Assembly (NCBI RefSeq): GCF_012911005.2
Contig: NZ_WTVS01000002.1
Location: 1 to 64,000 of the forward strand
Origin: Aromatoleum toluolicum
GTDB taxonomy: Bacteria; Pseudomonadota; Gammaproteobacteria; Burkholderiales; Rhodocyclaceae
DNA: 64,000 bases
Direction of reading: 5' to 3'
A program made the translations under genes and the position numbers. Shown here piece by piece: positions 1,707-33,396 of the stretch. A model generated the notes under the pieces. That model ran no database searches. It was not told the DNA's origin and saw nothing but the letters and a program-made list of their open reading frames with translations. Every line of letters starts with the position of its first letter. Position 1 is the stretch's first letter.

Positions 1707-1777
1707 TCTCTTATCCTTTAAAAGAAGCGTACGCGGGAAGACATTCTGATTCGAATGCGTCGCGCTAATTTACGGAC

Positions 1778-1840
1778 GACCAACGTTTGCGCCCACGCGA
1801 AGGCCCGCACGGGCGGGCCACATCCAGTTCATGATTACGC
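1778..1840 (-). other. attC-like site, distal end of cassette array
   Basis: This 63-bp segment follows the RibD-like cassette. It contains a strong hairpin (GGCCCGC, four-base loop, GCGGGCC) and, on the minus strand, a GTTGGTC end that resembles the R' core GTTRRRY. The other core (ATTACGC on plus) is degenerate. I see no further attC to its left, so the recognisable array ends here. Confidence 0.5.
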
Positions 1841-1844
1841 GGAG

Positions 1845-2395
1845 CTATTTACCAACCTCATATCGCAGCTCAACCATGCCAACCCCCATCTGGCGAACTG
1901 AGACAAGGCGCAGGATTGGGCTGAGAACTCGGCGCGGAAACACTTGCTTGCCTCTGCCCAGGGTCACTGAGCCGATCTGGATGATCAGCTCATCCAGAAG
2001 CCCTGCATCATGAAACTGTCCCGCCAAGTCTCCACCCCCACAATCCAGATATTTTTTTCCCCGGCGGCCACGCGCATCTCATTGTGAATCTCGCGCACAT
2101 CACCTTTCACAAATCTAATGTCTGAACCTTCAACTGCCGGCATAACGCGACTGGTGAACACCCAGACAGGCTGGGTGTACGGCCAAGGTGATCCAGTCTC
2201 GGCTGCAACCTTGTCGGCATTGCGGACGATCCATTCGTAGGTGGCGGCCCCCATTGCCAGTGCGCCGACTTCCGCAATGAAACTCGGGTAGCTGGAGTCA
2301 TTCAGATCCGCAAGAGGGAACAGCCACTCCAACGAGTCATCCTCGGTGGCGATAAATCCATCAAGACTTGATGCGGTGTAGTACTGGGTCTTCAT
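1845..2395 (-). pseudogene. RibD C-terminal/DHFR-like reductase, frameshifted
   Basis: This cassette encoded a dihydrofolate-reductase-like protein of the RibD C-terminal family (small NADPH reductases such as YyaP). The intact N-terminal part (2395 down to about 2040) starts MKTQYYTASSLDGFIATEDD and carries the family pattern through the GAATYEWI segment to IWIVG. There the frame breaks: a run of five G (2035-2039) appears to have lost one G. Restoring it gives IWIVGGGDLAGQFHDAGLLD and then the rest of the domain (DELIIQIGSVTLGRGKQVFP) in the frame ending at 1845. As it stands, a truncated 136-residue product would end at 1985. It is either a decayed cassette or a homopolymer sequencing error. 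Confidence 0.85.
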
Positions 2396-2400
2396 GACAT

Positions 2401-2489
2401 CGATAACCTCTCGTAAGGTGTCGACTGCCTATGGTTTGCACTCTCCGGACGGCGCAGCGTTTCGCGTAGGCTGCAATAGCTTGTCTGGA
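2401..2489 (-). other. attC site (long form, degenerate R'')
   Basis: On the plus strand CGATAAC (2401-2407) gives the R' core GTTATCG of the RibD-like cassette, 12 bases before its ATG. The opposite core is GTCTGGA (2483-2489), one or two changes from consensus. About 89 bp lie between, with partly complementary arms (CGGACGGCGCAGCG region). Confidence 0.6.
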
Positions 2490-2505
2490 AGCACGCTGTT
2501 CTTGA

Positions 2506-2730
2506 TCAAGATTCAACCCTTCTCGAAAGAAAAGCAACGACTACAAGAAAAACCGCAAGGCCCCAAAGGACGTAAGCCTGTCATTGCAGCACGAGGTACG
2601 TGAATGCAATCTCGTATGCTCAGGACAGACGGCCGCGGTATGGCGGAATGTCTGGAGAGAACCATTGAACGACCCCGAGCGGCAAGAAGACCAGAGCGAG
2701 CCCTAGGGCCTGTTTATCATTACGACTCAC
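2506..2730 (-). pseudogene. decayed small membrane ORF in same cassette
   Basis: Downstream of the 66-residue membrane protein, a second reading frame starts at a GTG that overlaps the upstream stop region. It reads 75 codons to a TGA at 2506 but contains two further in-frame TGA codons, at 2620-2622 and at about 2581-2583. Read through, it would be a second small membrane protein with hydrophobic stretches (QALGLALVFLPLGVVQWF near the start, VLWGLAVFLVVVAFL near the end). The hydrophobic pattern persists across both stops, which suggests nonsense mutations, possibly TGG to TGA, rather than random DNA. The first 36 codons could still be translated. Confidence 0.45.
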
Positions 2731-2920
2731 CCTCTGACATGCAGGTGATGAACTTGTATGTGAGATAGCCGGGAATGCCCATTAGCACAGCCAGCGAATA
2801 GCGACCAAACGGCCCTGTCAAACCGAACAGATAAGACAGTTGGCCAGCGATAAGCCATGCGGCGATTGCAAGACCAAGCCATTCATTTCGAGTGAAAGGT
2901 GAGGAATTTGAAGGCGACAT
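2720..2920 (-). CDS. two-helix small membrane protein (cassette)
   Basis: A 66-residue protein of unknown function with two predicted membrane helices (about residues 14-33, WLGLAIAAWLIAGQLSYLFG, and 38-56). The N terminus is polar and Ser-rich. It is the first ORF of its cassette and its stop region overlaps the GTG of the decayed ORF behind it. The ribosome site is weak, as in most of the cassettes here, which have very short leaders. Confidence 0.6.
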   Translation of the reverse strand: MSPSNSSPFTRNEWLGLAIAAWLIAGQLSYLFGLTGPFGRYSLAVLMGIPGYLTYKFITCMSEGES

Positions 2921-2928
2921 TTCCTACG

Positions 2929-2997
2929 GTCTCACGTCAGAATTCACCGTCCTGACGCGCCTTGCCGCGCCAGTTCCAGTGGGATGATGGGTTGAGG
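2929..2997 (-). other. attC site with mutated R' core
   Basis: The plus-strand core GTTGAGG (2991-2997) is a good R'' equivalent and a near-perfect hairpin (CCTGACGCGC against GCGCCAG) lies between the cores. The other end reads GTGAGAC on the minus strand where GTTRRRY is expected, so this end is mutated and may recombine poorly. Confidence 0.6.
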
Positions 2998-2998
2998 C

Positions 2999-3688
2999 TC
3001 ATTTGGTTACGAGTTCTACTGCCCGCTGTAGTAGCTGAGTCGCCTTAGATAGGACTGGCCCCGCCATAGCATCTTGTTGCAGAACGGCGAATGGCCCCTC
3101 GCCGAAATAGAGGCCGTCAGAAACGAGAAATGTGATTCGGACGTTTCCCGCCCTCGGTGGTGGAAGCCGTTGCCTATCCCAAGGTCCGATCTTGTTGACG
3201 ATCGGTTGAGAGACAGAAAGCAACTCTTTCGCCATACCCTCGACCGGGTTTCCCTGGCCTTCGAAGATTGCCAGTTTTCCGGATTGATTTAGATAACGCA
3301 CACCGCCTTCCGAAAAGGCTGCCAGTACGTCGAGACCCTGCTGAAGAGGAACCTCTACGATTACCCCGAGCAAACGCTTGGGTGGTACGGTCTCACCCAA
3401 TGCGCGCAACCGATTGTAGGCGACGGCGCGAACTCTACCTTCGTTGGCTTCATCATCGGCTACTTTGCGAAGTGCCGTCTTGTCTGGCCGTTCTGCCAGC
3501 AGAGTGCCCCAGAGACCAACACTCTTTTCGGCGCCATGCGTCTTGAAGAGATTGATGTCATCGCAGAAGAGAAGATTGTAGAGGAAGTTTACGTGCGATT
3601 CGGCATACGGTTTGTAGAGTTCTGCGCCGGCCGTCGAACCGCTCGCTGCCAACGTAATGCCGATTGCGGCTAGGAGTTTCTTCAGCAT
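2999..3688 (-). CDS. exported hypothetical protein (cassette)
   Basis: A 229-residue protein of unknown function with a clear Sec signal peptide (MLKKLLAAIGITLAAS, cleavage near STAGA-EL). I start at the ATG at 3688; an upstream TTG lies within the recombination core and is less likely. The mature part has one cysteine in an NLLFCDDINLF segment and a region repeating helical, charged sequence; part of it (ADDEANEGRVRAVAYNRLRAL) looks like a short HEAT-like helical repeat. It probably acts in the periplasm. The attC follows its start within 16 bases, so any promoter must be upstream in the array. Confidence 0.7.
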   Translation of the reverse strand: MLKKLLAAIGITLAASGSTAGAELYKPYAESHVNFLYNLLFCDDINLFKTHGAEKSVGLWGTLLAERPDKTALRKVADDEANEGRVRAVAYNRLRALGETVPPKRLLGVIVEVPLQQGLDVLAAFSEGGVRYLNQSGKLAIFEGQGNPVEGMAKELLSVSQPIVNKIGPWDRQRLPPPRAGNVRITFLVSDGLYFGEGPFAVLQQDAMAGPVLSKATQLLQRAVELVTK

Positions 3689-3697
3689 CTTTATTAG

Positions 3698-3765
3698 CCC
3701 CAACGCCGGAAATCACCGGACCTGCGCAACTCTTCGCGCAGGTCCGGTTGATTGAAAGGTTCGAC
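3698..3765 (-). other. attC site
   Basis: The cores are CCCCAAC (3698-3704, giving GTTGGGG on the minus strand) and GTTCGAC (3759-3765). Between them are long inverted arms sharing CCGGACCTGCGC with the attC at 7153-7219, so the two sites belong to one sequence subgroup. Confidence 0.8.
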
Positions 3766-3774
3766 CGCGTAACA

Positions 3775-4398
3775 CTAGTATTCGAACCCCAAGAACCTGC
3801 CTTCTTTTCCCTCGCCATCGGTGAGAACCAACAAATCCTTCTCCCGCTTGAATTTGTAACTAATTGGCGGCTGGTTACGTGGTGTGATGATAAGAGTGTC
3901 GTAGGTCGTGCGATACGTTCCCATGAGCGTCTGAAATGGAACGCTTAGCTGTACAACGCCAGTGCGGGAATATCGCATCAGGGCCGGGCCGCCCGTGTAA
4001 TGTTTAAAAGTCCACTCACCTACGATTGGATGCGCACCTTTGTATGGCCTGCCGGTGCGCTTCATAATTTGCTTTCGATCCGGCGTTTTGGGATTCTGAG
4101 TCAGAGTGTCACCATCAACTGAGAATTCCTGGATCGACACTTCCCCTGTGAGAGAGCCATCCGGGGCAAGCAGCGTCATCTTGATTCGATTTCCATCGAT
4201 CTCGTACAAGAAGTCAACCAATGCGCCGAATGCATGGGTTACGTTTCCATCCTTCGAAAATATCCATTGTGGTCCGAGACCGCCCTTGGTGCGTGACGAT
4301 GACGACCAGATTCCCGCGACATCATCTTCCGCGATAGCCGGGAAGACGCCAAGAAATGCCAAACAGCTCAGCAAGAGGGCTCGTGCAGGTGCGTTCAT
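3775..4398 (-). CDS. exported lipocalin-like hypothetical protein (cassette)
   Basis: A 207-residue protein with a signal peptide (ALLLSCLAFLGVFPAIA, cleavage near AIA-ED). The mature protein is rich in alternating beta-type sequence with two GxW motifs (VAGIWSSSS near the start and IVGEWTFKHY at about residue 125), which suggests two small beta-barrel or sandwich units of the kind seen in lipocalin-like cassette proteins. That fold is inference. Ligand and role are unknown. Confidence 0.7.
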   Translation of the reverse strand: MNAPARALLLSCLAFLGVFPAIAEDDVAGIWSSSSRTKGGLGPQWIFSKDGNVTHAFGALVDFLYEIDGNRIKMTLLAPDGSLTGEVSIQEFSVDGDTLTQNPKTPDRKQIMKRTGRPYKGAHPIVGEWTFKHYTGGPALMRYSRTGVVQLSVPFQTLMGTYRTTYDTLIITPRNQPPISYKFKREKDLLVLTDGEGKEGRFLGFEY

Positions 4399-4407
4399 TA
4401 GATTAGC

Positions 4408-4444
4408 GATCTACGTTTGAGCTCAGGCCGCGGCGCGTCAGGGC
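4408..4444 (-). other. truncated attC-like remnant
   Basis: Between two cassette ORFs the expected attC is only about 37 bp. It retains GTAGATC in place of GTTRRRY and GTCAGGGC at the other end, with GGCCGCGGC at the centre. It looks like an attC that lost its middle, which would fuse the two cassettes into one unit. Confidence 0.35.
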
Positions 4445-4956
4445 CGTCGAGCCAGCAGCGAATGGTTAGAGCGCCCCCGGTATATGAGAAGCGCCCAGAT
4501 ACAGATTGCCAGCTCCACTGCAAACGACCAGTGCAGGATAAAGCTCAGCCACCATGGTTTGAACCCCGCGGCCACCGTGAACATGGCGTACGGTTGGTCA
4601 ATGAATGGGGCAAACCACCATATGTCTCCTACAAAGGAGTCGAGGACTACGTGCAACACACCGCCCACGCAAAGAACCAGCGACAGGATGGCGGCCTTCG
4701 ACTGTCTGGCGTACCCGAACCACAATGCAGAGGCTGTGGCCAACGTTAGCCAAATGATTGGCCAATGTGACAGGTACTTGTGATGGTGGGTCTGCCTATT
4801 GTCGATAACGTGGAAATACACCATGTCGAAGTCTGGCGCCAACGCGCCAACGATTCCGGCTGCAACAATTGCCTTTGCGGAGACCGCAACGCTGGCGACC
4901 CGCCCCATGATCGAAGTTGCCAGAATGTAACCGGAAGGAGCGTGGGCGATGATCAT
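4438..4956 (-). CDS. YdjM-like membrane-bound metal-dependent hydrolase (DUF457)
   Basis: A 172-residue membrane protein of the YdjM/DUF457 family of putative zinc-dependent membrane hydrolases. The N-terminal part carries the characteristic Asp-x-Asp and His cluster (APDFDMVYFHV followed by HHHKYLSH), with more His/Asp in HVVLDSFVGD, and about five membrane helices. I start at the ATG at 4956 (MIIAHAPSGYIL), 13 bases after the recombination core; the longer reading frame would begin inside the attC. The substrate is unknown. Such proteins are frequent integron cargo. Confidence 0.75.
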   Translation of the reverse strand: MIIAHAPSGYILATSIMGRVASVAVSAKAIVAAGIVGALAPDFDMVYFHVIDNRQTHHHKYLSHWPIIWLTLATASALWFGYARQSKAAILSLVLCVGGVLHVVLDSFVGDIWWFAPFIDQPYAMFTVAAGFKPWWLSFILHWSFAVELAICIWALLIYRGRSNHSLLARRP

Positions 4957-4962
4957 TGGGTG

Positions 4963-5045
4963 CTCTAACGAATTGAGTTCCGCGGACGGACGTAAACAGT
5001 GCAAAGCGCCGCTCGTGGCCCGCCCACTGCAACGATTGGTTGGGC
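4963..5045 (-). other. attC site
   Basis: The cores are CTCTAAC (4963-4969) and GTTGGGC (5039-5045). This attC closes a cassette whose coding part, expected between 5046 and the IS element, is not recognisable any more. Only repeats are found there. Confidence 0.75.
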
Positions 5046-5131
5046 CTCACGATGCCTCGCGTGGAGGTTGTCTGGTGAAATTGAACCCTTCCTCCCTCCA
5101 AAATTGCAGATCATGAAAATTGGGAAATATA

Positions 5132-5173
5132 ATGGGAAATAGGGGACAGACCATGGGAAATAGGGGACAGACC
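5132..5173. repeat. two tandem 21-bp GGGGACAGACC repeats
   Basis: Two perfect tandem copies of a 21-bp unit (5132-5152 and 5153-5173) contain AATAGGGGACAGACC. The same core appears in inverted orientation in the adjacent 49-bp repeats, so RNA or single strands from here could fold into hairpins with stems over 20 bp. Confidence 0.9.
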
Positions 5174-5181
5174 ACGGTTTC

Positions 5182-5279
5182 GGAAACAACAAATAGCAAA
5201 ACCGTGGTCTGTCCCCTATTTTCTAAACCCGGAAACAACAAATAGCAAAACCGTGGTCTGTCCCCTATTTTCTAAACCC
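5182..5279. repeat. perfect tandem duplication of a 49-bp REP-like unit
   Basis: Positions 5182-5230 and 5231-5279 are identical. Each unit contains GTGGTCTGTCCCCTATTT, the reverse complement of the motif in the neighbouring 21-bp repeats. Motifs of the form GTGGTCTGTCCCC are known to me as interspersed REP-like sequences in betaproteobacteria, often near REP-associated transposases. No such transposase gene is visible here. Confidence 0.9.
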
Positions 5280-5328
5280 GGCTTTATGCGCAAGGGGAAG
5301 TTCCCACGAAAAAGTGAGCACCCGCTAG

Positions 5329-6138
5329 TCATGCGAATTGAAACTCGAATTCGACGGGTGATTGGTAACCCAAGGCTGAGTGTAGCCTCCGGTGATTGTA
5401 GTAATCCACGTAATCGCGAATGGCGCGATGAAGTTCGTGATCAGAGTTGAAACGATGGCGGTGGTACATGTCGGATTTCATCGATTTATTCCATGATTCC
5501 ATGTGCGCATTGTCGGTCATGCGGCGCGGCCGATTGACGGATTGATCGAGGCCTGCGCGCTGCAGTGCACGCTTGAAGCCGGCAGCAAGGAATTCGACGC
5601 CTCGATCGCTATGGAACGTGACGCCCGGGGCGGGATTGCGCGACCTCACGGCCGCAGCCAGCGCTCGACGCGTTAAGGCAGCGGTCTTGTCGGGACCAAG
5701 AGACCATCCGAGCAAGCGCCTCGAATGGCGATCCATCACTGTGGCGAGATAACGCCACTGATTGCGTACTTTTAAATACGTGACGTCACCGACCCAGACC
5801 TGATCGGGACGCTCGACGTCGATCCTGTGTGCCTTGCTCTCAACACTGTCGAAGAACTGCGCAAGGCGAGGCATACGACGGTAAAGCGTCGCAGAACAGG
5901 CGCGAACACCGTGCTCACGCATCAGGCGCTCTACGCGTCGCTTACCGACACCTTCGCCGGCCTTTCTCAATGCCGCATGCACGCGCGGACTGCCGTAGGT
6001 CTCGCGACTGGCCTGATGGACCGCTTGAATCTTGTCCAGAAGACGGGTGTCCTCATTGGCACGAGCGCAGGCCGGGCGCTGTCGCCAAGCATAATAGCCA
6101 GAGGGGCTGACACCGTAGAGCCGGCACATCGTTCTCAC
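5329..6138 (-). CDS. IS3-family transposase OrfB
   Basis: A 269-residue catalytic part of the IS3 transposase. It has the HTH_21-like N-terminal region ([16 protein letters not shown]), then an rve integrase core with the DDE residues visible in WVGDVTYLK (first Asp), FHSDRGVEF (second Asp) and [11 protein letters not shown] (Glu). It ends with the conserved [15 protein letters not shown]. It overlaps orfA by four bases and is in the -1 frame, so it is normally made as an OrfAB fusion by frameshifting. The reading frame is complete, so the element may be active. Confidence 0.93.
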
Positions 6139-6491
6139 CTGGAACGCTTCCTTGCAGTGCTCGATGAAGGCGAAGACGTCCCCTTTCGAGCGGAAGTGAA
6201 CGCGATGGCTTTTTTTAACAGATCGTGCTCCAGCTTCAGGCGCTCGTAGTCCTTCTTGAGCTTGCGCAACTCCTTGAGCTCGGCCGCCACGTCCTTATCG
6301 ATTTCGACTGTCTTGGTCAGGATCAACCCCTCACGCGCCTGCTTGCGCCATCGCGACAGCATAAACGGATGAATGGAAAGCGAGGCCGCGACATCATTCA
6401 CCCTTACCCCCGGCAACTGGCTCAGCCGTACTGCCGTTGCCTTGAAATGAGCACTATATCGGTTGGTCGTCCTGGGTCCTGGTTTGGGCAT
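6135..6491 (-). CDS. IS3-family transposase OrfA
   Basis: A 118-residue protein with a helix-turn-helix ([20 protein letters not shown], then [14 protein letters not shown]) followed by a leucine-zipper region ([20 protein letters not shown]). It binds the IS ends and regulates transposition. I start at the ATG at 6491 after CAGGAG. Alone it terminates at 6135 with a Ser/Arg-rich tail, which is what reading past the slippery site in frame 0 gives. Confidence 0.92.
6209..6215 (-). promoter_or_regulatory. -1 programmed frameshift site A-AAA-AAG
   Basis: On the minus strand orfA reads TTA AAA AAA GCC. Slipping back one base on A-AAA-AAG continues as [19 protein letters not shown] and runs directly into OrfB, giving the expected IS3 fusion with no gap. 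This is a direct reading of the sequence and matches the standard IS3 mechanism. Confidence 0.88.
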
Positions 6492-6565
6492 TGCACACAC
6501 TCCTGAACAGTTTGTTCAGGGTGTCCACCAAACCGTAGGAACCGCCCGGTCCGGTTGACCGAGAG

Positions 6566-6572
6566 GTTATGC
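6566..6572 (-). other. attC half-site cut by the IS3 element
   Basis: GTTATGC on plus (GCATAAC on minus) matches the R'' core and equals the core of the adjacent cassette start at 6704-6710. The arm after it (CTCTCGGTCAACCGGACC on minus) runs into the IS end at 6547. Confidence 0.6.
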
Positions 6573-6579
6573 GTCGCCA

Positions 6580-6684
6580 CTATTGCTGCTCAACTTTTCG
6601 TTCCTTGATGGATTTGATTTTCGTGTCCTTCACGATGCAAACCGCAGCTCTAGTCTTCTCTAGATCAGGTTCGTCTTCTAGCAA
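6580..6684 (-). CDS. possible 34-residue peptide in a minimal cassette
   Basis: The tiny cassette between 6566 and 6710 holds an open frame with a TTG start at 6684 and a TAG at 6580. The peptide is highly charged (LEDEPDLEKT, then KDTKIKSIKERKVEQQ). An AAAGGGAAG sequence sits immediately before the TTG, which is too close for a good ribosome site. It could be a real small peptide, the tail of a deleted gene, or a non-coding cassette. Confidence 0.3.
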   Translation of the reverse strand: MLEDEPDLEKTRAAVCIVKDTKIKSIKERKVEQQ

Positions 6685-6703
6685 CTTCCCTTTGGATTAA
6701 GAC

Positions 6704-6772
6704 GCATAACGCGTAAATCAACGGACGTCAAAAGCGCAGCTTTTGGCGGTCCGATGCATTGATGGGTTAGAG
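6704..6772 (-). other. attC site
   Basis: The cores are GCATAAC (6704-6710) and GTTAGAG (6766-6772). The arms contain CGGACGTC, AAGCGCAGCTTTTGGCGG and GTCCG, the same arm sequence as the attC sites at 7512 and 8839. Confidence 0.85.
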
Positions 6773-6773
6773 G

Positions 6774-7127
6774 TCATTGTGCGCCCTTAAAAAAAGACCT
6801 CTGGCTCGACTCGTAAGTACTTCGCGAACCTGAGTCAGTTTTGGAGGCAGTCAGTGCAGAGCCCGCCGGTTCTTGAGGTCGTGATGATTTTGTTCCCTCT
6901 TGAACACAAAGGTATCTCGCGCTTCCGTTTGCAAACTGCATAGTCACGGTTCGGACCATCTTGAGATTTGCGTAGGCTGGATCATCGCAATAGAAAAGAC
7001 CCGCACCACCGACCAAGCGGATTGAGTCTCCTTCTCCTATTTCAAGCACTAGGTCTTTTTTTTGAGCGCAGGCCATTAGAAATATGGTGATCGCAAATAG
7101 TGTCAACAGCTTTATCTTATTCTTCAT
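6774..7127 (-). CDS. small lipoprotein (cassette)
   Basis: A 117-residue protein with a lipoprotein signal (LLTLFAITIFLMACAQ; lipobox LMAC, Cys about residue 20). The mature part opens with QKKDLVLEIGEGDSIRLVGG and has two later cysteines (FYCDDPAY and RYLCVQEG) that could form a disulfide, then a Ser/Thr-rich tail. It should be anchored in the outer or inner membrane facing the periplasm. Function unknown. Confidence 0.7.
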   Translation of the reverse strand: MKNKIKLLTLFAITIFLMACAQKKDLVLEIGEGDSIRLVGGAGLFYCDDPAYANLKMVRTVTMQFANGSARYLCVQEGTKSSRPQEPAGSALTASKTDSGSRSTYESSQRSFFKGAQ

Positions 7128-7152
7128 CGGAATGAAATGCTGACGACAAGTT

Positions 7153-7219
7153 CTCTAACGTGGAGATCACCGGACCTGCGCGGCTTGCCGCGCAGGTCCG
7201 GTGGATTGCAGGGTTAAAG
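7153..7219 (-). other. attC site with a 15-bp perfect stem
   Basis: The cores are CTCTAAC (7153-7159) and GTTAAAG (7213-7219). The centre is CCGGACCTGCGCGGC, two bases, then its exact complement. Confidence 0.88.
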
Positions 7220-7220
7220 C

Positions 7221-7508
7221 TCATAGGCCGCCCATCAAACCGAGAACAAGAGTTGCGGCAAGCGCCAGAACAAGCGGGGATAGCAGAAGCGCTAGTTGGA
7301 CGCGGCCGAGTTTTCGGCGCCCAACGCATGCCAGTACAGGCAAACCGAGCCAAGCCGGGAAACCATAAATCAGCCCGAGACCGAAACCAATGCCGAATTC
7401 ATTGCGGAGCGGGTTGTGTGGCTGCACCGCCCACTGCGCCGCGTAGTACGCCATGATCGAAGCCGCGAGACCACCCCAGGCAAACGCGCCCCATCGGAGG
7501 ATGTTCAT
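7221..7508 (-). CDS. small membrane protein (cassette)
   Basis: A 95-residue protein with about three membrane helices (near residues 5-24, 42-61 and 70-92) and small-residue motifs (GIGFGLGLIYGFPAWLGLP). It starts 10 bases after the recombination core at 7518 and stops two bases before the next attC, so it fills the cassette. Family unknown. Confidence 0.65.
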   Translation of the reverse strand: MNILRWGAFAWGGLAASIMAYYAAQWAVQPHNPLRNEFGIGFGLGLIYGFPAWLGLPVLACVGRRKLGRVQLALLLSPLVLALAATLVLGLMGGL

Positions 7509-7511
7509 GAG

Positions 7512-7581
7512 CTTTAACGTGGTTCTTCAGCGGACGGAAAAAGCGCAGCTTTTGACGGTCCGCTGCAAGGGGGGGTTAGCC
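7512..7581 (-). other. attC site
   Basis: The cores are CTTTAAC (7512-7518) and GTTAGCC (7575-7581). The arms AGCGGACGGAAAAAGCGC and TTTTGACGGTCCGCT pair as expected. Confidence 0.88.
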
Positions 7582-7588
7582 ATACACA

Positions 7589-8059
7589 TTAGAAGCTCAC
7601 CACCCGGTAGTTGAACTTCGTATTAGGGAAGCCACAGTCTTTTCGCATCGCCGCTATGGCGGAAGCGTAGGCGATTTGCAGCGTTTCCTCCGTGACTGAA
7701 CCGCGCGAAGCAGTATTTGTCTTGATGAGGTCGAGCAGATGGCCGACGGAGTTCATCACTTCATCAGGAGCCCATAGGGCCGCCTCGTCGTATGCCTCGA
7801 GGAAGCGCTTCTGATCGTCGACGTTGCTCCGCGTGCTTGCGTTCAGGAAGACGCGCAGTGATACGGAGAGCTTGGTGTATACGTTGCGCCGCCTGACTAA
7901 TAGCTCTTGCTCCCGAGCGCCTGCGAGTCGTTCATTCTCAAGAATGCGCGCAGCCCACACGCCACCAAGCCACTTGGCGAGCGCGAACACAATGGCCGCA
8001 CCACCGCCAAGAGCCAAGAGTACAGAGCCAGCAATTGATAGAAGTTGGGAAAAATCCAT
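7589..8059 (-). CDS. single-span membrane protein with cytoplasmic helical domain (cassette)
   Basis: A 156-residue protein with one N-terminal membrane helix (about residues 8-36, SIAGSVLLALGGGAAIVFAL) followed by a charged helical domain (ARILENERLAGAREQELLVR and on to residue 150). I recall proteins of this arrangement as common cassette cargo, but no function has been assigned. It begins 23 bases after the recombination core. Confidence 0.7.
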   Translation of the reverse strand: MDFSQLLSIAGSVLLALGGGAAIVFALAKWLGGVWAARILENERLAGAREQELLVRRRNVYTKLSVSLRVFLNASTRSNVDDQKRFLEAYDEAALWAPDEVMNSVGHLLDLIKTNTASRGSVTEETLQIAYASAIAAMRKDCGFPNTKFNYRVVSF

Positions 8060-25927: not shown

Positions 25928-26491
25928 TCAGTTGAAACCGGGCGCGAAATCCGCCTGCGCGGCCTCGCCCTCGCCGACCGGCGGGCGCGCGCGCACCGCG
26001 GCCAGTATCCCCGCAAGGAGCTCCGCCGGGGGCGGCGGACAGCCCGGCACGGTGACGTCGACCGGGATCACGTTCGCCACGCCGCCGCAGCTCGCATAGC
26101 TCTCGCCGAAGATGCCGCCGTTGCGGCCGCAGTCCCCGACCGCGACGACCAGCTTCGGCGCCGGCGTCGCGTCGTAAGTGCGCCGCAGCGCGACCTCCAT
26201 GTGGCGCGACACCGGTCCGGTGACGAGCAGCATGTCGGCATGGCGCGGGCTGGCGACGAAGCGGATGCCGAGGCCCTCGATGTTGTAGTAGGGGTTGTTC
26301 AGCGCATTGATCTCGAGCTCGCAGCCGTTGCACGACCCGGCATCGACGTGCCGGATTGCCAGCGCGCGGCCGAGGATGGCGAGGAGCTCGTCATGGATCA
26401 GGTGCGCGGGGCGGCGCGCGCCCACCAGCGGTTCGGGCGGCGGCTCGGTCACACGGCCGCGGCGCGCGACGTATTTCAGGATGTGCCACAT
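25928..26491 (-). CDS. hyfI: Hyf/NuoB-like 20-kDa FeS subunit
   Basis: A 187-residue subunit homologous to NuoB/HycG/HyfI. It keeps the four cysteines that bind the proximal [4Fe-4S] cluster: C54 and C57 (SCNGCELEI), C121 (VGDCGRNGG) and C151 (VPGCPPPP). Its start overlaps the large-subunit stop by one base (TAATG). It is the last gene of the operon and contacts the large subunit at the membrane surface. Confidence 0.93.
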   Translation of the reverse strand: MWHILKYVARRGRVTEPPPEPLVGARRPAHLIHDELLAILGRALAIRHVDAGSCNGCELEINALNNPYYNIEGLGIRFVASPRHADMLLVTGPVSRHMEVALRRTYDATPAPKLVVAVGDCGRNGGIFGESYASCGGVANVIPVDVTVPGCPPPPAELLAGILAAVRARPPVGEGEAAQADFAPGFN

Positions 26492-28035
26492 TACAGATCC
26501 TGCCCCGAATAGCTGAGATTGAAGGACTTGTTGATCAGCGGGAAGTCCGGAACGATGTTGCCGATGATCGCGTGCTCGAGCACCGGCCAGTTCTGCCACG
26601 ACGGATCGTGGCAGTGGCAGCGCGCGATGCGCCCCTGCGCGTTGGTTTCCAGTGCGACGAACACTTCGCCCCGCCAGCCCTCGACCCAGCCGGCGCCGAC
26701 GCCGTCCCGCGTCGCGAGGGCCGGCTCGTGGAACGCGCCGCCCGGCAGCCCGGCGACCAGCGCGTCGATCATCCGCAGCGACGCGAAGCACTCCTCGAAG
26801 CGCATCGCCACGCGCGCCGCGACGTCGCCGTTGCGATGCGTGCAGGCCGTGACCGCGAGGCCGTCGTAGGGCGGCCACGGGAAGTCCGCGCGCAGGTCGG
26901 CCGACTGCCCGCTCGCCCGTCCGGCAAGCCCGGTCAGCCCCAGGCGCTGGGCGAGTTCCGGCGTGACCCGGCCGGTCGTTACGAGACGGTCCTGCAGCCC
27001 GGCGTGCTCGTCGTAGATGTCCTTCAGCTCGGCGACTTCGCGCGCGATGTCTTCGACCTGGCGGCGCAGTTTCGTGCAGGCGTCCGCGTCGAGATCGCGC
27101 GCGACCCCGCCGGGACGGACGCCGTCCATCATCAGGCGGTGGCCGAAGCATTCGCGGTTCAGGCGCAGCCAGTCCTCGCGCAGGCGCGAGAACTGCGCGA
27201 GGGCGAAGCCGAACGCGGCGTCGTTGCCGAGCGCGCCGAGGTCGCCGAGGTGATTCGCGACACGCTCGCGCTCGAGCATCAGCGCGCGCAGCCACACCGC
27301 GCGCTCGGGGGCCTTCGCCCCGACCAGCGATTCCGCCGCCATCGCGTAGGCCCACGCGTACGCGACGGTGCTGTCGCCCGACACCCGCCCGGCGAGGCGC
27401 GCGCCCTCGTCGGTGTCCATTCCCATGAAGCGGCGCTCGATGCCCTTGTGCTTGTAGCCGAGCCGCTCCTCGAGCCGCAGCACCTTCTCGCCGACCACCG
27501 AGAAGCGGAAATGCCCCGGTTCGATCGTGCCGGCATGCACCGGCCCGACCGGGATCTCGTGCACGCCGTCGCCTTCGACGGTAACGAAGGGGTAGGCATC
27601 GGCCTGCGCCTCGAAGCGTTCCTGGCCGGTGTTGTCGAGGCGCAGCGGGAAATAGTCCGCCGGCCACGCGCCGTGACGCAGCCACGGACGGCCGTCGCCC
27701 GCATCCTCGGCCTCGATCCCGACCAGATCGCGCGCGGCGCGCTGCATGCGGATCGCGGCGGGGAAGAAGCGCGAGATGTCCGGGTAGGCCGGCTTGCCCG
27801 CATCCAGGCCCAGCTTTGCCCACAGCAGTCCGTCCGCGCTCGCGTACGCCGCCGACACCGAGAAGCCGTCACCCGCGGCGCGCTCGTCGCTGCCCCACAG
27901 GCTCACGAGCCGCCCCTTCGCCTCCGCCACGGCCAGCGCCAGCGCGCTCCACTGCGCGCCATGCACCCGTGCGGCGAAGATCGGCACGGGGGCGTCGAGC
28001 CGTTCGAAGCGGCAATCCAGTCCGAAAACGTCCAT
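26491..28035 (-). CDS. hyfG: Hyf/NuoCD-like large subunit lacking NiFe cysteines
   Basis: A 514-residue fusion of a NuoC-like (residues 1-120) and a NuoD/hydrogenase-large-like domain (130-514). It has the family segment GYKHKGIERRF. The N-terminal NiFe motif RxCGxC reads RVSGDS (217-222), so both cysteines are serine. The C-terminal DPCxxC position reads NLSYSG (506-511), again without cysteine. The protein therefore cannot hold a NiFe centre. It resembles the Ehr (energy-converting hydrogenase related) complexes. Only the neighbouring NuoB-like subunit binds FeS. Its start lies two bases after the hyfF stop. Confidence 0.9.
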   Translation of the reverse strand: MDVFGLDCRFERLDAPVPIFAARVHGAQWSALALAVAEAKGRLVSLWGSDERAAGDGFSVSAAYASADGLLWAKLGLDAGKPAYPDISRFFPAAIRMQRAARDLVGIEAEDAGDGRPWLRHGAWPADYFPLRLDNTGQERFEAQADAYPFVTVEGDGVHEIPVGPVHAGTIEPGHFRFSVVGEKVLRLEERLGYKHKGIERRFMGMDTDEGARLAGRVSGDSTVAYAWAYAMAAESLVGAKAPERAVWLRALMLERERVANHLGDLGALGNDAAFGFALAQFSRLREDWLRLNRECFGHRLMMDGVRPGGVARDLDADACTKLRRQVEDIAREVAELKDIYDEHAGLQDRLVTTGRVTPELAQRLGLTGLAGRASGQSADLRADFPWPPYDGLAVTACTHRNGDVAARVAMRFEECFASLRMIDALVAGLPGGAFHEPALATRDGVGAGWVEGWRGEVFVALETNAQGRIARCHCHDPSWQNWPVLEHAIIGNIVPDFPLINKSFNLSYSGQDL

Positions 28036-28037
28036 CG

Positions 28038-29492
28038 TCAGCCTCCGATCATCAGGGCCGCCTGCCGGTACCAGCCGTCGAGGTAGGGCGGGATGTAAAG
28101 CCCGAGCATCAGGGCGAGCCCGAGATGGACGAACACCGGCAGCAGCGCCGGCGGGTGGGCGAGCGGGCGCAGCGAGGTCTCGCCGAACACCATCGGCTGC
28201 ACGCGGCCGAAGATCGCCGCGAACGCGACGCCCAGCGCGACCAGCAGGAAGGGCGTGGCCCACGGCGCTTCGCGCATCGCGGTCGTCAGGATCAGGAACT
28301 CGCTCGCAAACACGCCGAAGGGCGGCATGCCGAGGATCGCCAGCGAGCCGAGCATCAGGCCCCAGCCGACCGTCGGACTCACTTTCAGCAGACCGCGGAT
28401 GTCCTCCATCGCCTGCGAACCGGCCTTCTGCGCGGCGTGGCCGACGGCGAAGAAGATCGCCGACTTCACCAGCGCATGCACGGTCATGTGCAGCAGCCCG
28501 GCGAAGTTCGCGATCGGGCCGCCCAGGCCGAAGGCGAAGGTCATCAGGCCCATGTGCTCGATCGACGAATACGCGAACATGCGCTTGACGTCGCGCTGGC
28601 GCGACAGGAAGAAGGCCGCGACGACGACCGTGACGAGGCCGAAGCCGATCATCATGCGCCCCGGCAGACCGTTCGCGAGCGCCCCGTCGGCGAGCACCTT
28701 GCAACGCAGCACCGCGTACAGCGCGACGTTCAGCAGCAGGCCCGACAGCACCGCCGAGATCGGCGTCGGGCCTTCCGCGTGCGCGTCCGGCAGCCAGTTA
28801 TGCACCGGCACCAGGCCCACCTTCGTGCCGTAGCCGAGGAGCAGGAAGACGAAGGCGAGCGACAGGATCTCGGGGTCGAGCAGATGCTTGGACTGGGCCA
28901 GGTGCGTCCACAGCAGCGCCTCGTCGCCGCCGCCGATCGCGCGCTCGGCGGCGAGGTAGAGCAGGATCGTGCCGAACAGCGCCTGCGCGATGCCCACGCC
29001 GCACAGGATGAAGTACTTCCACGCCGCCTCCAGGCTCGCCGGCGTGCGATACACCGACACCAGCAGCACGGTCGTGAGCGTCGCCGCCTCCATCGCCACC
29101 CACAGGATGCCGAGGTTGTTGGTCGTCAGCGCGACCAGCATCATGCCGTTGAACAGCTGGTACATGCTGTGGAACAGCCGCATGCGACCGGGGGTCATCT
29201 TGCCGTGGTCGCGCTCGATGCGCATGTAGGGGCGCGAGAACAGCGAAGTCGTGAAGCCGACGAAGGCGGTCAGCGTGACGAGGAAGACGTTGAGCGGATC
29301 GACGAAGAACCACTCGCCCCACGCCGTGAGCGGCCCGTCGCGCACGACGATCGCCGTGAGCCAGACGGACGCGGCGAGGGTGAGCAGGCTCATCGCGGCG
29401 TTGAGGTCTCCCGCCCGCTCGCGGTCGCCCCACAGCGCGAGCAGCACGCCGCCGAGCAGCGGAAACGCGAGGACGAAGAGGAGCGGATCCAT
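28038..29492 (-). CDS. hyfF: HyfF/NuoN-like antiporter subunit
   Basis: A 484-residue polytopic membrane protein of the Mrp-antiporter/NuoL-M-N fold, expected to move protons or sodium. Key charged positions are visible in YGTKVGLVPVHNWLPDAHAE, a broken-helix segment with Lys, and SIEHMGLMTFAFG. It overlaps the hyfE stop by one base. It is one of two antiporter-like subunits in the complex. Confidence 0.93.
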   Translation of the reverse strand: MDPLLFVLAFPLLGGVLLALWGDRERAGDLNAAMSLLTLAASVWLTAIVVRDGPLTAWGEWFFVDPLNVFLVTLTAFVGFTTSLFSRPYMRIERDHGKMTPGRMRLFHSMYQLFNGMMLVALTTNNLGILWVAMEAATLTTVLLVSVYRTPASLEAAWKYFILCGVGIAQALFGTILLYLAAERAIGGGDEALLWTHLAQSKHLLDPEILSLAFVFLLLGYGTKVGLVPVHNWLPDAHAEGPTPISAVLSGLLLNVALYAVLRCKVLADGALANGLPGRMMIGFGLVTVVVAAFFLSRQRDVKRMFAYSSIEHMGLMTFAFGLGGPIANFAGLLHMTVHALVKSAIFFAVGHAAQKAGSQAMEDIRGLLKVSPTVGWGLMLGSLAILGMPPFGVFASEFLILTTAMREAPWATPFLLVALGVAFAAIFGRVQPMVFGETSLRPLAHPPALLPVFVHLGLALMLGLYIPPYLDGWYRQAALMIGG

Positions 29493-30151
29493 CAGTCTTC
29501 CTTCAGCTTTTCGAGGTGGCGGATGTCCAGGCTGTCGAACTGCTCGCGGATCTGGAACATGAACACGCCGAGGATCAGGATGCCGACCAGCACGTCGAAC
29601 GCGATGCCCAGCTCGACGATCATCGGCATACCGCTGGTCGCCGCGGTGGCCGCGAAAAACAGGCCGTTCTCCATCGACAGGAAGCCGATCACCTGCGGCA
29701 CCGCCTTCGCGCGCACGATCATCATCAGGAAGGACAGCAGCACGCACGCGAGCGCGATGCCGAGCGTGCCGCGCGCGATCGAGGTCGACAGCCCCGCGAT
29801 CGGCGCCGCCAGATTGAACGCGAAGATCACCAGCACGATGCCGATCAGCATCGTCGTCGGGATGTTGAACAGGGTCTCGACGTCCCAGCGCACGTTGAGG
29901 CGCAGGATCACGCGGTGCAGCAGGATGGGGATCAGCACCACCTTGAGCACGAAGGTCAGCGCCGCGGAGAAGTACAGGTGGTGCTGGCCGGTGAGATAGC
30001 CGACGATCAACGTCGCCGCGGCCAGCGCCGCCCCCTGCAGCGTGAACAGGTGGATCAGCGTCAGGATGCGGCGCTGCGCGATCATCGCGAACGCGAGCAC
30101 GAGCAGCACGACCGCGAAGAGGTTGATCGACTGGGAAAGCAAACTCGTCAT
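29492..30151 (-). CDS. hyfE: HyfE-like membrane subunit
   Basis: A 219-residue protein with about seven membrane helices, related to HyfE (its N-terminal part resembles NuoK-like helices: MIAQRRILTLIHLFTLQGAA). It ends with a charged cytoplasmic tail (REQFDSLDIRHLEKLKED). I start at the ATG at 30151, close to the hyfC stop; an upstream start inside hyfC would add only seven residues. Confidence 0.9.
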   Translation of the reverse strand: MTSLLSQSINLFAVVLLVLAFAMIAQRRILTLIHLFTLQGAALAAATLIVGYLTGQHHLYFSAALTFVLKVVLIPILLHRVILRLNVRWDVETLFNIPTTMLIGIVLVIFAFNLAAPIAGLSTSIARGTLGIALACVLLSFLMMIVRAKAVPQVIGFLSMENGLFFAATAATSGMPMIVELGIAFDVLVGILILGVFMFQIREQFDSLDIRHLEKLKED

Positions 30152-30152
30152 C

Positions 30153-31100
30153 TCAGGCCCCCAGCAGCACATGCACCAGCAACGCGATCACCGCGAGCAG
30201 GAAGGCCGTCGCGAGGAACTCCGGCACGCGGAACAGGCGCATCTTCGCGTTGATCGTCTCGATCAGCGCGAGCAGCACGCCGCCGACCGCGAGCTTCACC
30301 ACCAGCATCGGGATCGCGAACAGGATCGCAATCGGCGTCCCCGCCTCGGCCACGCCCCACGGCACGAACAGTGCGAGGCCGATGCACGAATACGCGAACA
30401 GCTTCAGCGACGCGGCCCATTCGACCAGTGCCAGATGGCGCCCCGAGTATTCGAGGATCAGCGCCTCGTGGATCATCGTCAGCTCAAGGTGGGTGGCCGG
30501 GTTGTCCACCGGCACGCGCGCGTTCTCCGCCAGCGACACCATCGTGAACGCGACGCCCGCCACCGCCAGGCTCGGATAGATCGCGAACGGCTGGTGCGCG
30601 AGCGTTTCGACGATCATCGCGAGCGAAGTCGACTGCGTGATCAGCGAGGCCGAGAACAGCACCATCAGCAGCGCCGGCTCGGCGAGGAAGCCGATCAGCA
30701 TCTCGCGCCGCGCGCCGAGCGTGCCGAACGAGGTGCCGATGTCCATCGCCGCGAGCGAGATGAATACGCGCGCGAGCGCGAACAGGCCGACCAGCGCGAT
30801 CGCGTCGGCCGCGGGCGCCAGCGGCAGGTCGGTCGACAGCGTCGGCGCGATGCCGCACGCGAGCGCCATGCAGCCGAACATGATGTAGGGCGCGACGCGG
30901 AAGATCGGCGTTGCGTGCTCGGCGACGACCGATTCCTTGTTGAACAGCTTGTGCAGCACGCGATAGGGCTGCAGCAGGCCCGGCGCGCGCCGCCCCTGCA
31001 GCCACGCCCGCCACTGGTTCACCCACCCCGTCAGCAAGGGCGCCAGCGCCAGCGCGAGGGCAATGGCGAGGAGTTGCGCGAACAGGCCGACGATGCTCAT
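30153..31100 (-). CDS. hyfC: HyfC/NuoH-like membrane subunit
   Basis: A 315-residue NuoH-family subunit, which anchors the soluble arm to the membrane domain. Conserved loops are visible (QPYRVLHKLFNKESVV, SLAENARVPVDNPATHLELT, EYSGRHLALVEWA), carrying the acidic residues of the family. It overlaps hyfB by four bases (ATGA), so translation is coupled. Confidence 0.94.
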   Translation of the reverse strand: MSIVGLFAQLLAIALALALAPLLTGWVNQWRAWLQGRRAPGLLQPYRVLHKLFNKESVVAEHATPIFRVAPYIMFGCMALACGIAPTLSTDLPLAPAADAIALVGLFALARVFISLAAMDIGTSFGTLGARREMLIGFLAEPALLMVLFSASLITQSTSLAMIVETLAHQPFAIYPSLAVAGVAFTMVSLAENARVPVDNPATHLELTMIHEALILEYSGRHLALVEWAASLKLFAYSCIGLALFVPWGVAEAGTPIAILFAIPMLVVKLAVGGVLLALIETINAKMRLFRVPEFLATAFLLAVIALLVHVLLGA

Positions 31101-33097
31101 GATTTCACCACCAGCAGCAGGACCATCAGGGTCACGAAGCTGTACAGCAGGTAGATCGCGATGCGCCCCTGCTGCAGCCGCCCGACGCCGCGCGCGATGA
31201 GGGACGTGAGGCGCGCGACCGGCAGGTACAGCCAGTGCCAGAAATGGTCCTCGATCGTGACGCGGTAGTGCGGTTTCGCGTCGAACGGCGACGGCAGCTC
31301 GCGGCGCATGCGGAAGAAGGGCTCGAAGATCTGGCGGATCGGCTGGCCGAAGCCCTCGGCCGTATCCTGCATGCGCGCGGTCTGCGCCGGAAAGCCGCAG
31401 TCCCACGCCGGGGCGCGGCGCAGGCGCCCGTGATAGAGCTTGCGCACGAGCACCGCCGTGAGCAGCACCGCGAGGCTCACGACGCCGAGGAACACCAGCG
31501 GACCGTAACTCGCGCGGTCGATGGAGCTCGGCGACAACAGCAGCCAGCCGTTCGCGCGCACCGTGTCGGCAATGCCGCCGCCGACCAGCAGCCGCGTGAC
31601 CCGGTCGATCAGGCCGATGACCTGCACCGGGAAGAGCCCCAGCAGCACGCAGCCCGCGCCGAGCCACACGAGACCAGCACGTTCGAGCGGGGACGCCGGG
31701 TGCGCGTCGGCGAGCTTCGGCTCGCGCGGCTGGCCGAGGAAGATCACGCCGAAGAACTTCACCATCGTGTAGCCGGCCAGCGCAGCCACCAGCGCAATAC
31801 CCGCCGCGAGCACCGGCACCAGCATGTTGAGGAAGGAGTCCGGCAGCCCCGTCGTGAACAGGAAGCTCTGCAGCAGCAGCCATTCCGACACGAAGCCGGA
31901 GAACGGCGGCAGGCCCGAACTCGCCAGCACGCCGACGAGCGACAGCCACGCCACCCACGGCATGCGCCGCATCAGGCCGCCGAGCTTGCCGAGGCTGCGC
32001 TCGCCGGTCGCGTGCAGCACCGAGCCGGTCGCGAGGAACAGCAGGCTCTTGAAGAAGGCATGGCCGAGGACGTGGTACAGCGCCGCTGTCAGCGCCAGCG
32101 CGGACAGCGCCTTCATCCCGTAGGCGTTGAACAGCACGCCGAGGCCGATGCCGACGAAGAGCAGGCCGATGTTCTCGATCGACGAATACGCGAGCAGGCG
32201 CTTCATGTCCGTCTGCACCGCGCTGAACACCACGCCGTACAGCGCGGTCGCGAGGCCCACCGCCATGAGCAGCACGCCCCACCACCACTGCTGCGCGCCG
32301 AGCAGGTCGAAGCTCACGCGCAGCAGGCCGTAGATCGCCGTTTTCAGCATCACGGCGCTCATCAGCGCGGACACCGGCGACGGCGCCGCCGGATGGGCCT
32401 CCGGCAGCCACACATGCAGCGGCAGGATGCCGGCCTTCGCGCCGAAGCCCACGGTCGCAAGCAGGAAGGCCGCTGAGGCCCACAGCGGCGACAGCGACTG
32501 CGCGCGCATGTTGGCGAAGGTGTAGTCGCCGGTGTTGGCCTGCAGCACGCCGAAGCACAGCAGGATCCCAAGCGCGCCGATATGGGCGATGAGCAGGTAC
32601 AGGAAACCCGCCTCGCGGATCGCCGGCACGCGATGGTTCGCGGTGACGAGGAAGAACGAGGACAGCGCCATCGTCTCCCACATCACCATGAAGGCGTAGG
32701 CGTCGTCGGCCAGCACGACCAGCGCCATGCTGGCGAGGAAGAGATGGTACTCGAGGCACATCAGCCCGGGCGGCGTGCCCTCGCCGTGACGGAAATAGCC
32801 CGCGGCGAAGATCGAGATGCCGAAGGCGATCGCGCCGATCACGAGCAGGAAGAAGGCCGACAGCCCGTCGAGCCGCAGGTGGAAAGGCAGGTCCGGCAGG
32901 CCCAGCGCGAGCACCGCGGTTTCCGGGGTGCCGAGCAGCCCGGCGACGGCGAACCCCGCAAGCGCCACCGCCAGCACGGCCCCGGCCGGAAACAGCACGC
33001 GGGCGACGAACGCGGTGTTGCGCAGTGCGCCGATCCCGGCGACCCCCAGCGCGAGCCAGCCCGCGATGACGATCAGGATCCAGTCGAGAACCAGCAC
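31097..33097 (-). CDS. hyfB: HyfB/NuoL-like antiporter subunit
   Basis: The first gene of the operon codes for a 666-residue NuoL-type proton-conducting subunit (FGAKAGILPLHVWLPEAHPA with the Lys of the broken helix, SSIENIGLLFVGIGLG) with an extended C-terminal part (RAPAWDCGFPAQTARMQDTA) typical of HyfB. I start at the GTG at 33097 behind GGGGGAGG; a longer frame to 33145 has no ribosome site. The promoter lies in the AT-rich gap shared with the divergent ribbon-helix-helix gene. Confidence 0.93.
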   Translation of the reverse strand: MLVLDWILIVIAGWLALGVAGIGALRNTAFVARVLFPAGAVLAVALAGFAVAGLLGTPETAVLALGLPDLPFHLRLDGLSAFFLLVIGAIAFGISIFAAGYFRHGEGTPPGLMCLEYHLFLASMALVVLADDAYAFMVMWETMALSSFFLVTANHRVPAIREAGFLYLLIAHIGALGILLCFGVLQANTGDYTFANMRAQSLSPLWASAAFLLATVGFGAKAGILPLHVWLPEAHPAAPSPVSALMSAVMLKTAIYGLLRVSFDLLGAQQWWWGVLLMAVGLATALYGVVFSAVQTDMKRLLAYSSIENIGLLFVGIGLGVLFNAYGMKALSALALTAALYHVLGHAFFKSLLFLATGSVLHATGERSLGKLGGLMRRMPWVAWLSLVGVLASSGLPPFSGFVSEWLLLQSFLFTTGLPDSFLNMLVPVLAAGIALVAALAGYTMVKFFGVIFLGQPREPKLADAHPASPLERAGLVWLGAGCVLLGLFPVQVIGLIDRVTRLLVGGGIADTVRANGWLLLSPSSIDRASYGPLVFLGVVSLAVLLTAVLVRKLYHGRLRRAPAWDCGFPAQTARMQDTAEGFGQPIRQIFEPFFRMRRELPSPFDAKPHYRVTIEDHFWHWLYLPVARLTSLIARGVGRLQQGRIAIYLLYSFVTLMVLLLVVKS

Positions 33098-33210: not shown

Positions 33211-33396
33211 ATGAAAGAGAATCGAACCGCCCGCCTGACCTTGCTGATCGACCCGGAGAAGAAGAAGCTCTTCGAGGAAATCTGCGCCAGCAAGGACCTG
33301 ACGCCGTCGCAGGTCGTGCGCCGTCTGATCCGTCAGTACGTGCAGGAGAATGCCGGCAACCGGACGCTGCCGGAGTGGCTGAAGGACAACGACTGA
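33211..33396 (+). CDS. ribbon-helix-helix (CopG-like) regulator
   Basis: A 61-residue protein with the RHH arrangement: a beta strand (ARLTLLIDPEKKKLFEEI) then helix-turn-helix (SKDLTPSQVVRRLIRQYVQE). It lacks a toxin partner. It is divergent from hyfB and is the natural candidate to control that operon and itself. A GTG three bases upstream is an alternative start. Confidence 0.85.
   Translation: MKENRTARLTLLIDPEKKKLFEEICASKDLTPSQVVRRLIRQYVQENAGNRTLPEWLKDND

Follow-up and report, generated by a model that had tools for sequence, protein, structure and literature searches.

How can a gene cluster that automatic annotation files under hydrogenase 4 function when its large subunit has none of the cysteines that bind nickel and iron? 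The question is raised by a locus of Aromatoleum toluolicum lying in the stretch of 64,000 nucleotides analysed here (the window: positions 1 to 64,000 of contig NZ_WTVS01000002.1, assembly GCF_012911005.2), in which a hyf/hyq-type cluster of six minus-strand genes runs from 33097 to 25928, the genes overlapping or standing 1-2 bases apart. The encoded complex is almost certainly of the Hyq/Ehr type, and is best read from its sequences as a six-subunit minimal complex I, which would work with neither the NADH module nor the ferredoxin-like NuoI/HyfH subunit, with one iron-sulphur (FeS) cluster and with no nickel. The observation is of a kind already in print, under the gene names hyqBCEFGI or hyfBCEFGI and as Ehr-type complexes, and the absence of the CxxC motifs was published in 2012 (PMC3357923). 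What is newly added here is the placement, by sequence comparison, of the window complex in a well-supported sister clade lacking three further cysteines of the large subunit, together with counts of carriers without HypD or nifH, the conserved make-up of the altered pocket, and a 0.9-Mb genome in which the complex is kept beside a mere fragment of complex I.

The large subunit, HyqG, is a fused NuoC/NuoD-like protein of 514 residues (26491..28035, minus strand; PF00346 2.4e-36, PF00329 9.5e-10), and its nearest solved chain by sequence is 7z0s_E of formate hydrogenlyase (6.6e-67). Aligned with HycE and HyfG of Escherichia coli, it reads RVSGDS in place of RVCGIC, and NLSYSG with three residues to the end against DPCYSC with 35. 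The four ligand positions of the nickel-iron (NiFe) site are thereby S219, S222, S508 and G511, and the original prediction, which had read both motifs as altered and all four ligands as absent, is borne out by the alignment to the E. coli proteins and to 7z0s_E. The C-terminal extension that hydrogenases cleave at maturation measures 35 residues in six four-cysteine rows, and the window HyqG has none. Among 87 aligned large subunits, 73 were classed as Hyq-type, a grouping made in this analysis, the other 14 comprising six four-cysteine rows, three NuoD-type rows and five others (L111, which is partial, L113, L115, L167 and L190). All four cysteines are missing from 71 of the 73 Hyq-type rows and two keep only the first; a hydrogenase-type tail was found in none of the 73. 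The single cysteine at ligand position 1 belongs to L142 and L187, which read RICGDS and RSCGDS.

The residues at these positions are themselves highly conserved among the Hyq-type rows, with serine at position 1 in 68, at position 2 in 67 and at position 3 in 64, and glycine at position 4 in 70. Asp221 is both new and invariant (73/73, against isoleucine in 6/6 NiFe rows), and Asn506 is present in 71. Two further positions recall complex I: His167, kept in 72 rows, matches NuoD, and Asp272, kept in 72 with glutamate in the other, is aspartate in the three NuoD rows and phenylalanine or leucine in the six NiFe rows. The histidine, tyrosine and aspartate of the NuoD quinone site are, in what we take to be the NuoD numbering, H38, Y87 and D139. 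As judged from these alignments, the NiFe site is replaced by a conserved, remodelled pocket, RxSGDS/NxSYxG, with the His-Asp pair of complex I.

HyqI, the NuoB-like subunit (25928..26491, minus strand, 187 residues; PF01058 2e-30), has four cysteines for one 4Fe-4S cluster, and these (C54, C57, C121 and C151) are present in 55, 55, 55 and 54 of 55 rows, the window copy being counted twice; the four FeS cysteines noticed from the letters alone are thus near-invariant. The HyqB/HyfB-like antiporter subunit (31097..33097, minus strand, 666 residues from a GTG start at 33097; PF00361 7.5e-56; NCBIfam PRK06521, 922 bits against a cut-off of 667) has GluTM5, LysTM7, LysTM8 and LysTM12, and the HyqF/HyfF-like antiporter subunit (28038..29492, minus strand, 484 residues; PF00361 3.9e-51; PRK06458.1-5, 903 bits against a cut-off of 543) has GluTM5, LysTM7 and LysTM12; the channel residues of both are kept in 49-54 of 55 rows. 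HyqC, the NuoH-like membrane anchor (30153..31100, minus strand, 315 residues; PF00146 2.3e-34), bears an acidic loop whose residues E192, D199, E206 and E212 are kept in 54-55 of 55 rows. The HyqE/HyfE-like membrane subunit (29492..30151, minus strand, 219 residues) matches NCBIfam PRK11492 at 8.6e-24, under the cut-off of that model, and no Pfam family. The overlapping genes and the two antiporter-like, NuoH-like and HyfE-like subunits described earlier were recovered at exactly the coordinates given for them, in agreement with the profile matches.

Measured against five congeners, the ratio of non-synonymous to synonymous substitution rates (dN/dS) is 0.03-0.18 for hyqB, hyqC, hyqE and hyqF, 0.15-0.25 for hyqG and 0.10-0.22 for hyqI, and all six genes are under purifying selection. 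That the cluster is a decaying relic of hydrogenase 4, as the missing nickel site might suggest, is scarcely credible given this selection, the open frames and the recurrence of the new motif across alphaproteobacteria, betaproteobacteria, a methanotroph and Rhodococcus. It is likewise improbable that the complex performs no net redox chemistry and serves as an ion/proton antiporter of the Mrp kind with a vestigial peripheral arm. The loss of the NiFe site and the two antiporter-like subunits with their channel residues would suit such a role, but the four FeS cysteines and the pocket hardly vary, and the dN/dS values just given for HyqG and HyqI show the peripheral arm to be constrained.

The distribution of the cluster was assessed in a sample of 396 proteobacterial genomes of at least 95% completeness, drawn evenly across the phylum, whose rows are not independent and in which a genome was counted as a carrier above 500 bits. 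Fifty of them are carriers, ranging from nitrogen-fixing soil bacteria to a genome of 0.9 Mb. Not counted were a partial match (G165) and G099, G283 and G348, three genomes that score 205-216 bits and are absent from the HypD list; the large subunits read in two of these three, L167 and L190, also lack the ligands and sit on a very long branch. HypD is missing from 26 of the 50 carriers, nifH from 35 and both from 25. None of the 12 genomes whose homologues score 319-349 bits lacks HypD; the label NiFe denotes for them a score band, the four cysteines having been read in two (L168, L169). Among 61 genomes of relatives of the window strain, its own included, 30 have the complex, six of these without HypD; within the genus it occurs in 14 of 17 genomes, four of the 14 being without nifH and three without HypD. 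The expectation that hyp maturation genes would be absent therefore fails for the window genome (6.16 Mb, 289 contigs), which has HypD (G000:C100) as well as nifH, and holds for many other carriers. An ordinary hydrogenase 4 is ruled out by the missing ligands, the missing tail and the HypD-free carriers.

The warning that an automatic hydrogenase label would mislead was justified, since NCBIfam assigns HyfB and HyfF to hydrogenase 4 above its cut-offs. Plasmid records name this large subunit NADH dehydrogenase subunit C, nickel-dependent hydrogenase or HypE, and two Rhizobium plasmid records (H39, H43) call it 'hydrogenase expression protein HypE'.

Phylogeny supports the same separation and divides the family further. 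A maximum-likelihood tree was built from 76 rows, 11 of the 87 having been dropped (10 near-duplicates and one partial sequence), with Geobacter Ehr and Mbx not among the rows. The window large subunit belongs to a starred clade (100/100) that includes neither the six catalytic rows of Hyf/Hyc type nor the three NuoD rows; together with the ligand loss and the absent tail, this supports the original prediction of an Ehr-like complex rather than a NiFe hydrogenase. Within it the window HyqG falls in a 30-row clade (100/97, starred), whose sister clade counts 32 rows (94/86, not starred), among them Rhizobium johnstonii, Bradyrhizobium and Azospirillum; the six four-cysteine rows lie outside both. 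The alphaproteobacterial relatives compared are 45-48% identical, and the large subunit of G001, a genome of the same genus, is 95% identical to that of the window. Three other HyqG cysteines, C258, C491 and C497 of Azorhizobium caulinodans, are described in the part of the source available as completely conserved (PMC3357923). Their equivalents in the window are G270, I501 and L507, and none of the three occurs in any of the 30 rows of its clade. In the 32-row clade all three are present in 23 rows, two in six and none in three (two of these on a very long branch), and they are therefore not fully conserved even there. We met no statement of this two-clade split as far as our searches of open-licence PMC papers reached. 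Both HyqG types coexist in one genome, G019 (L018, L110). Second operons of Variovorax sp. PBL-E5 (L096, 691-3467) and of genome G431 (L156, 5275-9633) encode large subunits of yet another type (SIxGDS, FDLSYCG), which sits on a long branch; these operons also contain a HyfD-like frame and a frame of 253-258 residues matching both HyqI and HyfH/NuoI.

The cysteine pattern bears on whether the complex is a true H2:quinone oxidoreductase, an endo-hydrogenase activating H2 without a NiFe centre, which is the role proposed for hyqRBCEFGI of A. caulinodans, the Hyq 'endo-hydrogenase' (PMC2650096, PMC2930871, PMC3357923; these papers are cited here from the parts available). This published cluster with its claimed H2 activity has the same gene set as the window and did not figure in the original prediction. 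For it, hyq-dependent H2 uptake at 20 uM O2 and H2 evolution below 1 uM were reported, and deletion of hyq raised H2 release about 15-fold at 20 uM O2 and, under microaerobiosis, reduced it to 0.4 of the parental level (PMC3357923); the same paper states that HyqG of eight genera lacks both CxxC motifs and calls a NiFe site uncertain if not unlikely. H2 recycling was further reported to continue after hup/hyp had been deleted, and in a species that has hyq and no hup/hyp (PMC2930871, PMC3357923). These phenotypes, and our 26 carriers without HypD, speak for H2. Against it, the window clade has neither the four ligands nor any of the three additional cysteines, and the genetics is indirect: the authors admit an additional, NifA-dependent H2 source, and the accessible text reports no purified activity (PMC3357923). 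Moreover, the related cluster of Acidithiobacillus ferrooxidans is classed as non-hydrogenase by HydDB, and, in the part of that study available, no group 4 subunit was observed in cells growing on H2 (PMC7735108). The H2:quinone reading is therefore ranked third and considered rather improbable. The specific proposal that chemistry in the RxSGDS pocket and the N2 cluster would activate H2, with nickel, an iron-carbonyl cofactor and Hyp proteins all dispensable, is highly improbable; were it true, the window clade would show that the pocket alone suffices.

Which partner the complex reacts with was sought in 54 context loci, selected from a larger set of matches. In these stretches no frame similar to E. 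coli HyfA, HyfJ, HycB, HycI, NuoE, NuoF, NuoG, NarG, NarH, FrdB, the pyruvate:ferredoxin oxidoreductase (PFOR) YdbK, HypB or HypD was found, and frames resembling HyfH/HycF/NuoI or HyfD are confined to the separate second operons of L096 and L156 mentioned above. The lack of a dedicated redox module therefore points to a shared soluble carrier. A NuoF-type protein is present in 49 of the 50 carrier genomes, so that a carrier usually has complex I as well as Hyq.

A second-ranked explanation, which we regard as unlikely, is that the complex exchanges electrons with a small-carbon substrate or has an inorganic-carbon or formate role, possibly through another dehydrogenase. It draws on an enrichment of ribulose-1,5-bisphosphate carboxylase/oxygenase (RuBisCO) in carriers, 28/50 against 47/346 when 21 genomes with weak RuBisCO-like matches are excluded and 30/50 against 66/346 when they are included, and on the CO dehydrogenase that, in the part of the report available, adjoins hyfBCEFGI in the comammox bacterium Nitrospira nitrosa (PMC5596200). 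Genes for SulP sulfate/bicarbonate permeases could be cited as well: they lie directly upstream of hyqB in L184 (1832-3991), L109 (13622-15763) and L159 (16299-18029), and 2.1 kb upstream on the opposite strand in L105 (2175-4022). However, carriers are clustered by family (11/12 in f65, 5/5 in f74), so that the RuBisCO count is not independent, the window genome has no RuBisCO match, and SulP was confirmed beside only 4 of 54 operons.

Nitrogen fixation was considered as the main role and rejected, 35 of the 50 carriers being without nifH, even though nifH is enriched among carriers (15/50 against 24/346 others). The same 35 genomes contradict the statement, in the available part of one paper, that hyq is generally absent from non-diazotrophs (PMC2930871). 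FixABCX, the ferredoxin-reducing system of which FixX is a marker, was likewise rejected as a fixed partner, FixX being too rare and found mostly with nifH; none was found in the window genome.

The reading we rank first, the most probable of those weighed though somewhat short of an even chance, is carrier:quinone oxidoreduction coupled to ion transport, all three elements of which are inferred from the conserved sequence features. Since the complex has a single cluster and lacks a NuoI-like subunit, a soluble carrier would have access to the N2 cluster. The intact His-Asp pair and HyqC loop would place quinone at the other end, and the intact channel residues would let the reaction move ions. 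A soluble one-electron carrier of the ferredoxin or flavodoxin type might dock at HyqI/HyqG, in the place of NuoI, and its electrons would pass through the single cluster to a quinone bound between HyqG, HyqI and HyqC, the energy driving ion export via HyqB and HyqF. Under a high proton-motive force the complex could run backwards and make the low-potential carrier. The missing ligands and tail, and the carriers without HypD, count in favour of this reading as well.

Four observations weigh against carrier:quinone oxidoreduction. The position of the quinone-site tyrosine of complex I is glycine in 71 of 73 Hyq-type rows, as in hydrogenases. HypD is enriched in carriers (24/50 against 61/346), which as a group are not indifferent to H2; this enrichment and those of nifH and RuBisCO may reflect shared lifestyle or kinship. 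FixX was detected in 10 of 50 carriers and in 0 of 30 control genomes (Fisher p 0.01), none of the matches exceeding the curated cut-off and eight of the ten genomes also having nifH. Finally, the A. caulinodans genetics, as far as the papers are available, link a complex of the sister clade to both uptake and evolution of H2 (PMC3357923, PMC2930871). Under carrier:quinone oxidoreduction, the Azorhizobium data would reflect a changed supply of low-potential electrons to nitrogenase together with the second, NifA-dependent H2 source, as we infer.

A strongly reduced genome, G205 (about 0.9 Mb, 33% GC in the 835,617 bases read), speaks for carrier:quinone oxidoreduction. Its hyq genes B to I are spread over two contig ends, the C gene being split across both; the regions noted are L202 5279-5599, L202 12481-14693 and L218 12461-17400. 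It also has F1-ATPase subunits and, above NCBIfam cut-offs, a piece of the fumarate reductase flavoprotein (FrdA), the FeS subunit of that enzyme (FrdB) and GlpC; a FixX-like ferredoxin and a small YfhL-like ferredoxin score below the cut-offs. Searches of this genome for NuoF, COX1, HypD and nifH found none, E. coli queries for cydAB, narG and PFOR gave no match in the bases read, and of NuoD only a 107-residue piece was found. Hyq is thus the sole complex-I-like machine found there, beside fumarate reductase, and seems to have outlived complex I.

Gene order is near-constant: read by stop codons, B-C-E-F-G-I is kept in 51 of the 54 context loci, the window included, the exceptions being L098 (Rhodococcus, with I first), L156 (B beyond the stretch) and L099 (E and F frames unclear). 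No frame for the helix-turn-helix (HTH) regulator hyqR was recognised directly upstream of the window hyqB, where a divergent gene encodes instead a ribbon-helix-helix (RHH_9) protein of 61 residues (33211..33396, plus strand; PF19839 8.4e-32), a possible local regulator. In 17 of 57 loci, the window included, a homologue of this RHH_9 gene is found upstream of hyqB at a distance of at most 1.3 kb; all 17 belong to the window clade, 13 of the homologues being divergent and four in the direction of the operon. Several relatives from the 32-row clade have an HTH regulator gene ahead of hyqB. R. johnstonii 3841, presumably the strain formerly named R. leguminosarum bv. viciae 3841, carries the operon on pRL11 with the HTH gene first. 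In the window, unrelated genes stand on either side of the cluster: downstream those for an FMN reductase and for a DoxX protein, upstream those for a metallophosphatase and for a glycosyltransferase. The Pfam search of neighbours covered selected genes, and neighbour clustering, whose 28 largest clusters were mostly antisense frames of GC-rich DNA, was used only for the SulP, HTH and spermidine-synthase-like neighbours. Spermidine-synthase-like genes were seen upstream of hyqB in L096 (annotated) and L180 (PF01564), and such frames near the operon, by clustering only, in L095, L110, L151, L155 and L161. On a Methylovirgula plasmid (L100, 1-6183) an F-type ATPase operon adjoins hyq on the opposite strand, in a gene order that we take to resemble the sodium-translocating N-ATPase.

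A consensus scan found no sigma-54-type site with at most two mismatches upstream of the window hyqB (best 7/10 bases), and the whole window has fewer such sites than shuffles. Across contexts the excess is weak, the best upstream sites reaching 9/10 bases in 6 of 54 contexts, the window not among them, against 9 or more in 11 of 270 random stretches (p 0.046). Control of hyq by NifA and sigma-54 is not supported by this consensus scan, which could nevertheless miss it. A promoter and terminator scan gave nothing above chance. Positions 1-8000 have a GC content of 0.55-0.56, against 0.60-0.71 elsewhere in the window, which suggests an acquired segment.

These results matter for a cluster that is widespread and often misfiled as hydrogenase or NADH dehydrogenase. 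If it is truly a carrier:quinone ion pump, energy accounting would have to be revised for nitrogen fixers, for autotrophs and for degraders of aromatic compounds; if the published H2 claim is true, the complex would count as a hydrogenase that has no recognised H2 site. As the three cysteines are present in most rows of one sister clade and absent from the other, the H2 question can be put to the test in harmless soil bacteria.

Among known systems, the Hyq complex of A. caulinodans, compared here by published description, has the same six genes in the same order, a HyqG without CxxC motifs, the four cysteines of HyqI and no HyfA, HyfD or HyfH; a published 19-mer primer for its hyqG matched 66 other contigs, none from Azorhizobium. 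The window clade differs from it in lacking the three HyqG cysteines and in having, near hyqB in 17 loci, an RHH_9 gene where A. caulinodans has the HTH gene; upstream of the window operon no sigma-54-type site is conspicuous. The hyfBCEFGI cluster of Cupriavidus metallidurans CH34 (PMC2864759) has the same six genes and a large subunit (L095) of the window clade at 63% identity, and we found no difference separating the two; At. ferrooxidans, again by published description, has the same six genes. According to the parts of the reports available, these two clusters were judged unlikely to serve lithotrophic growth, or non-hydrogenase (PMC2864759, PMC7735108). The Ehr complexes, reportedly treated by Marreiros et al. 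in 2013, form a loose class sharing with the window a group-4-like large subunit without Ni/Fe ligands and antiporter-like, NuoH-like and NuoB-like subunits. That Ehr complexes lack the Ni/Fe-coordinating residues is stated in the available parts of two papers (PMC6349859, PMC10284858). Hydrogenase-4 (Hyf) and formate hydrogenlyase (Hyc) of E. coli have homologous B, C, E, F, G and I subunits, whereas the window has no HyfA, HyfD, HyfH or HyfJ near the operon, no NiFe ligands and no tail, and its complex is common in HypD-free genomes. Respiratory complex I, in turn, shares the NuoB, NuoCD, NuoH and NuoL/M-type parts and the His-Asp pair of NuoD, while the window complex differs in having no NADH module, no NuoI and a glycine for the quinone-site tyrosine.

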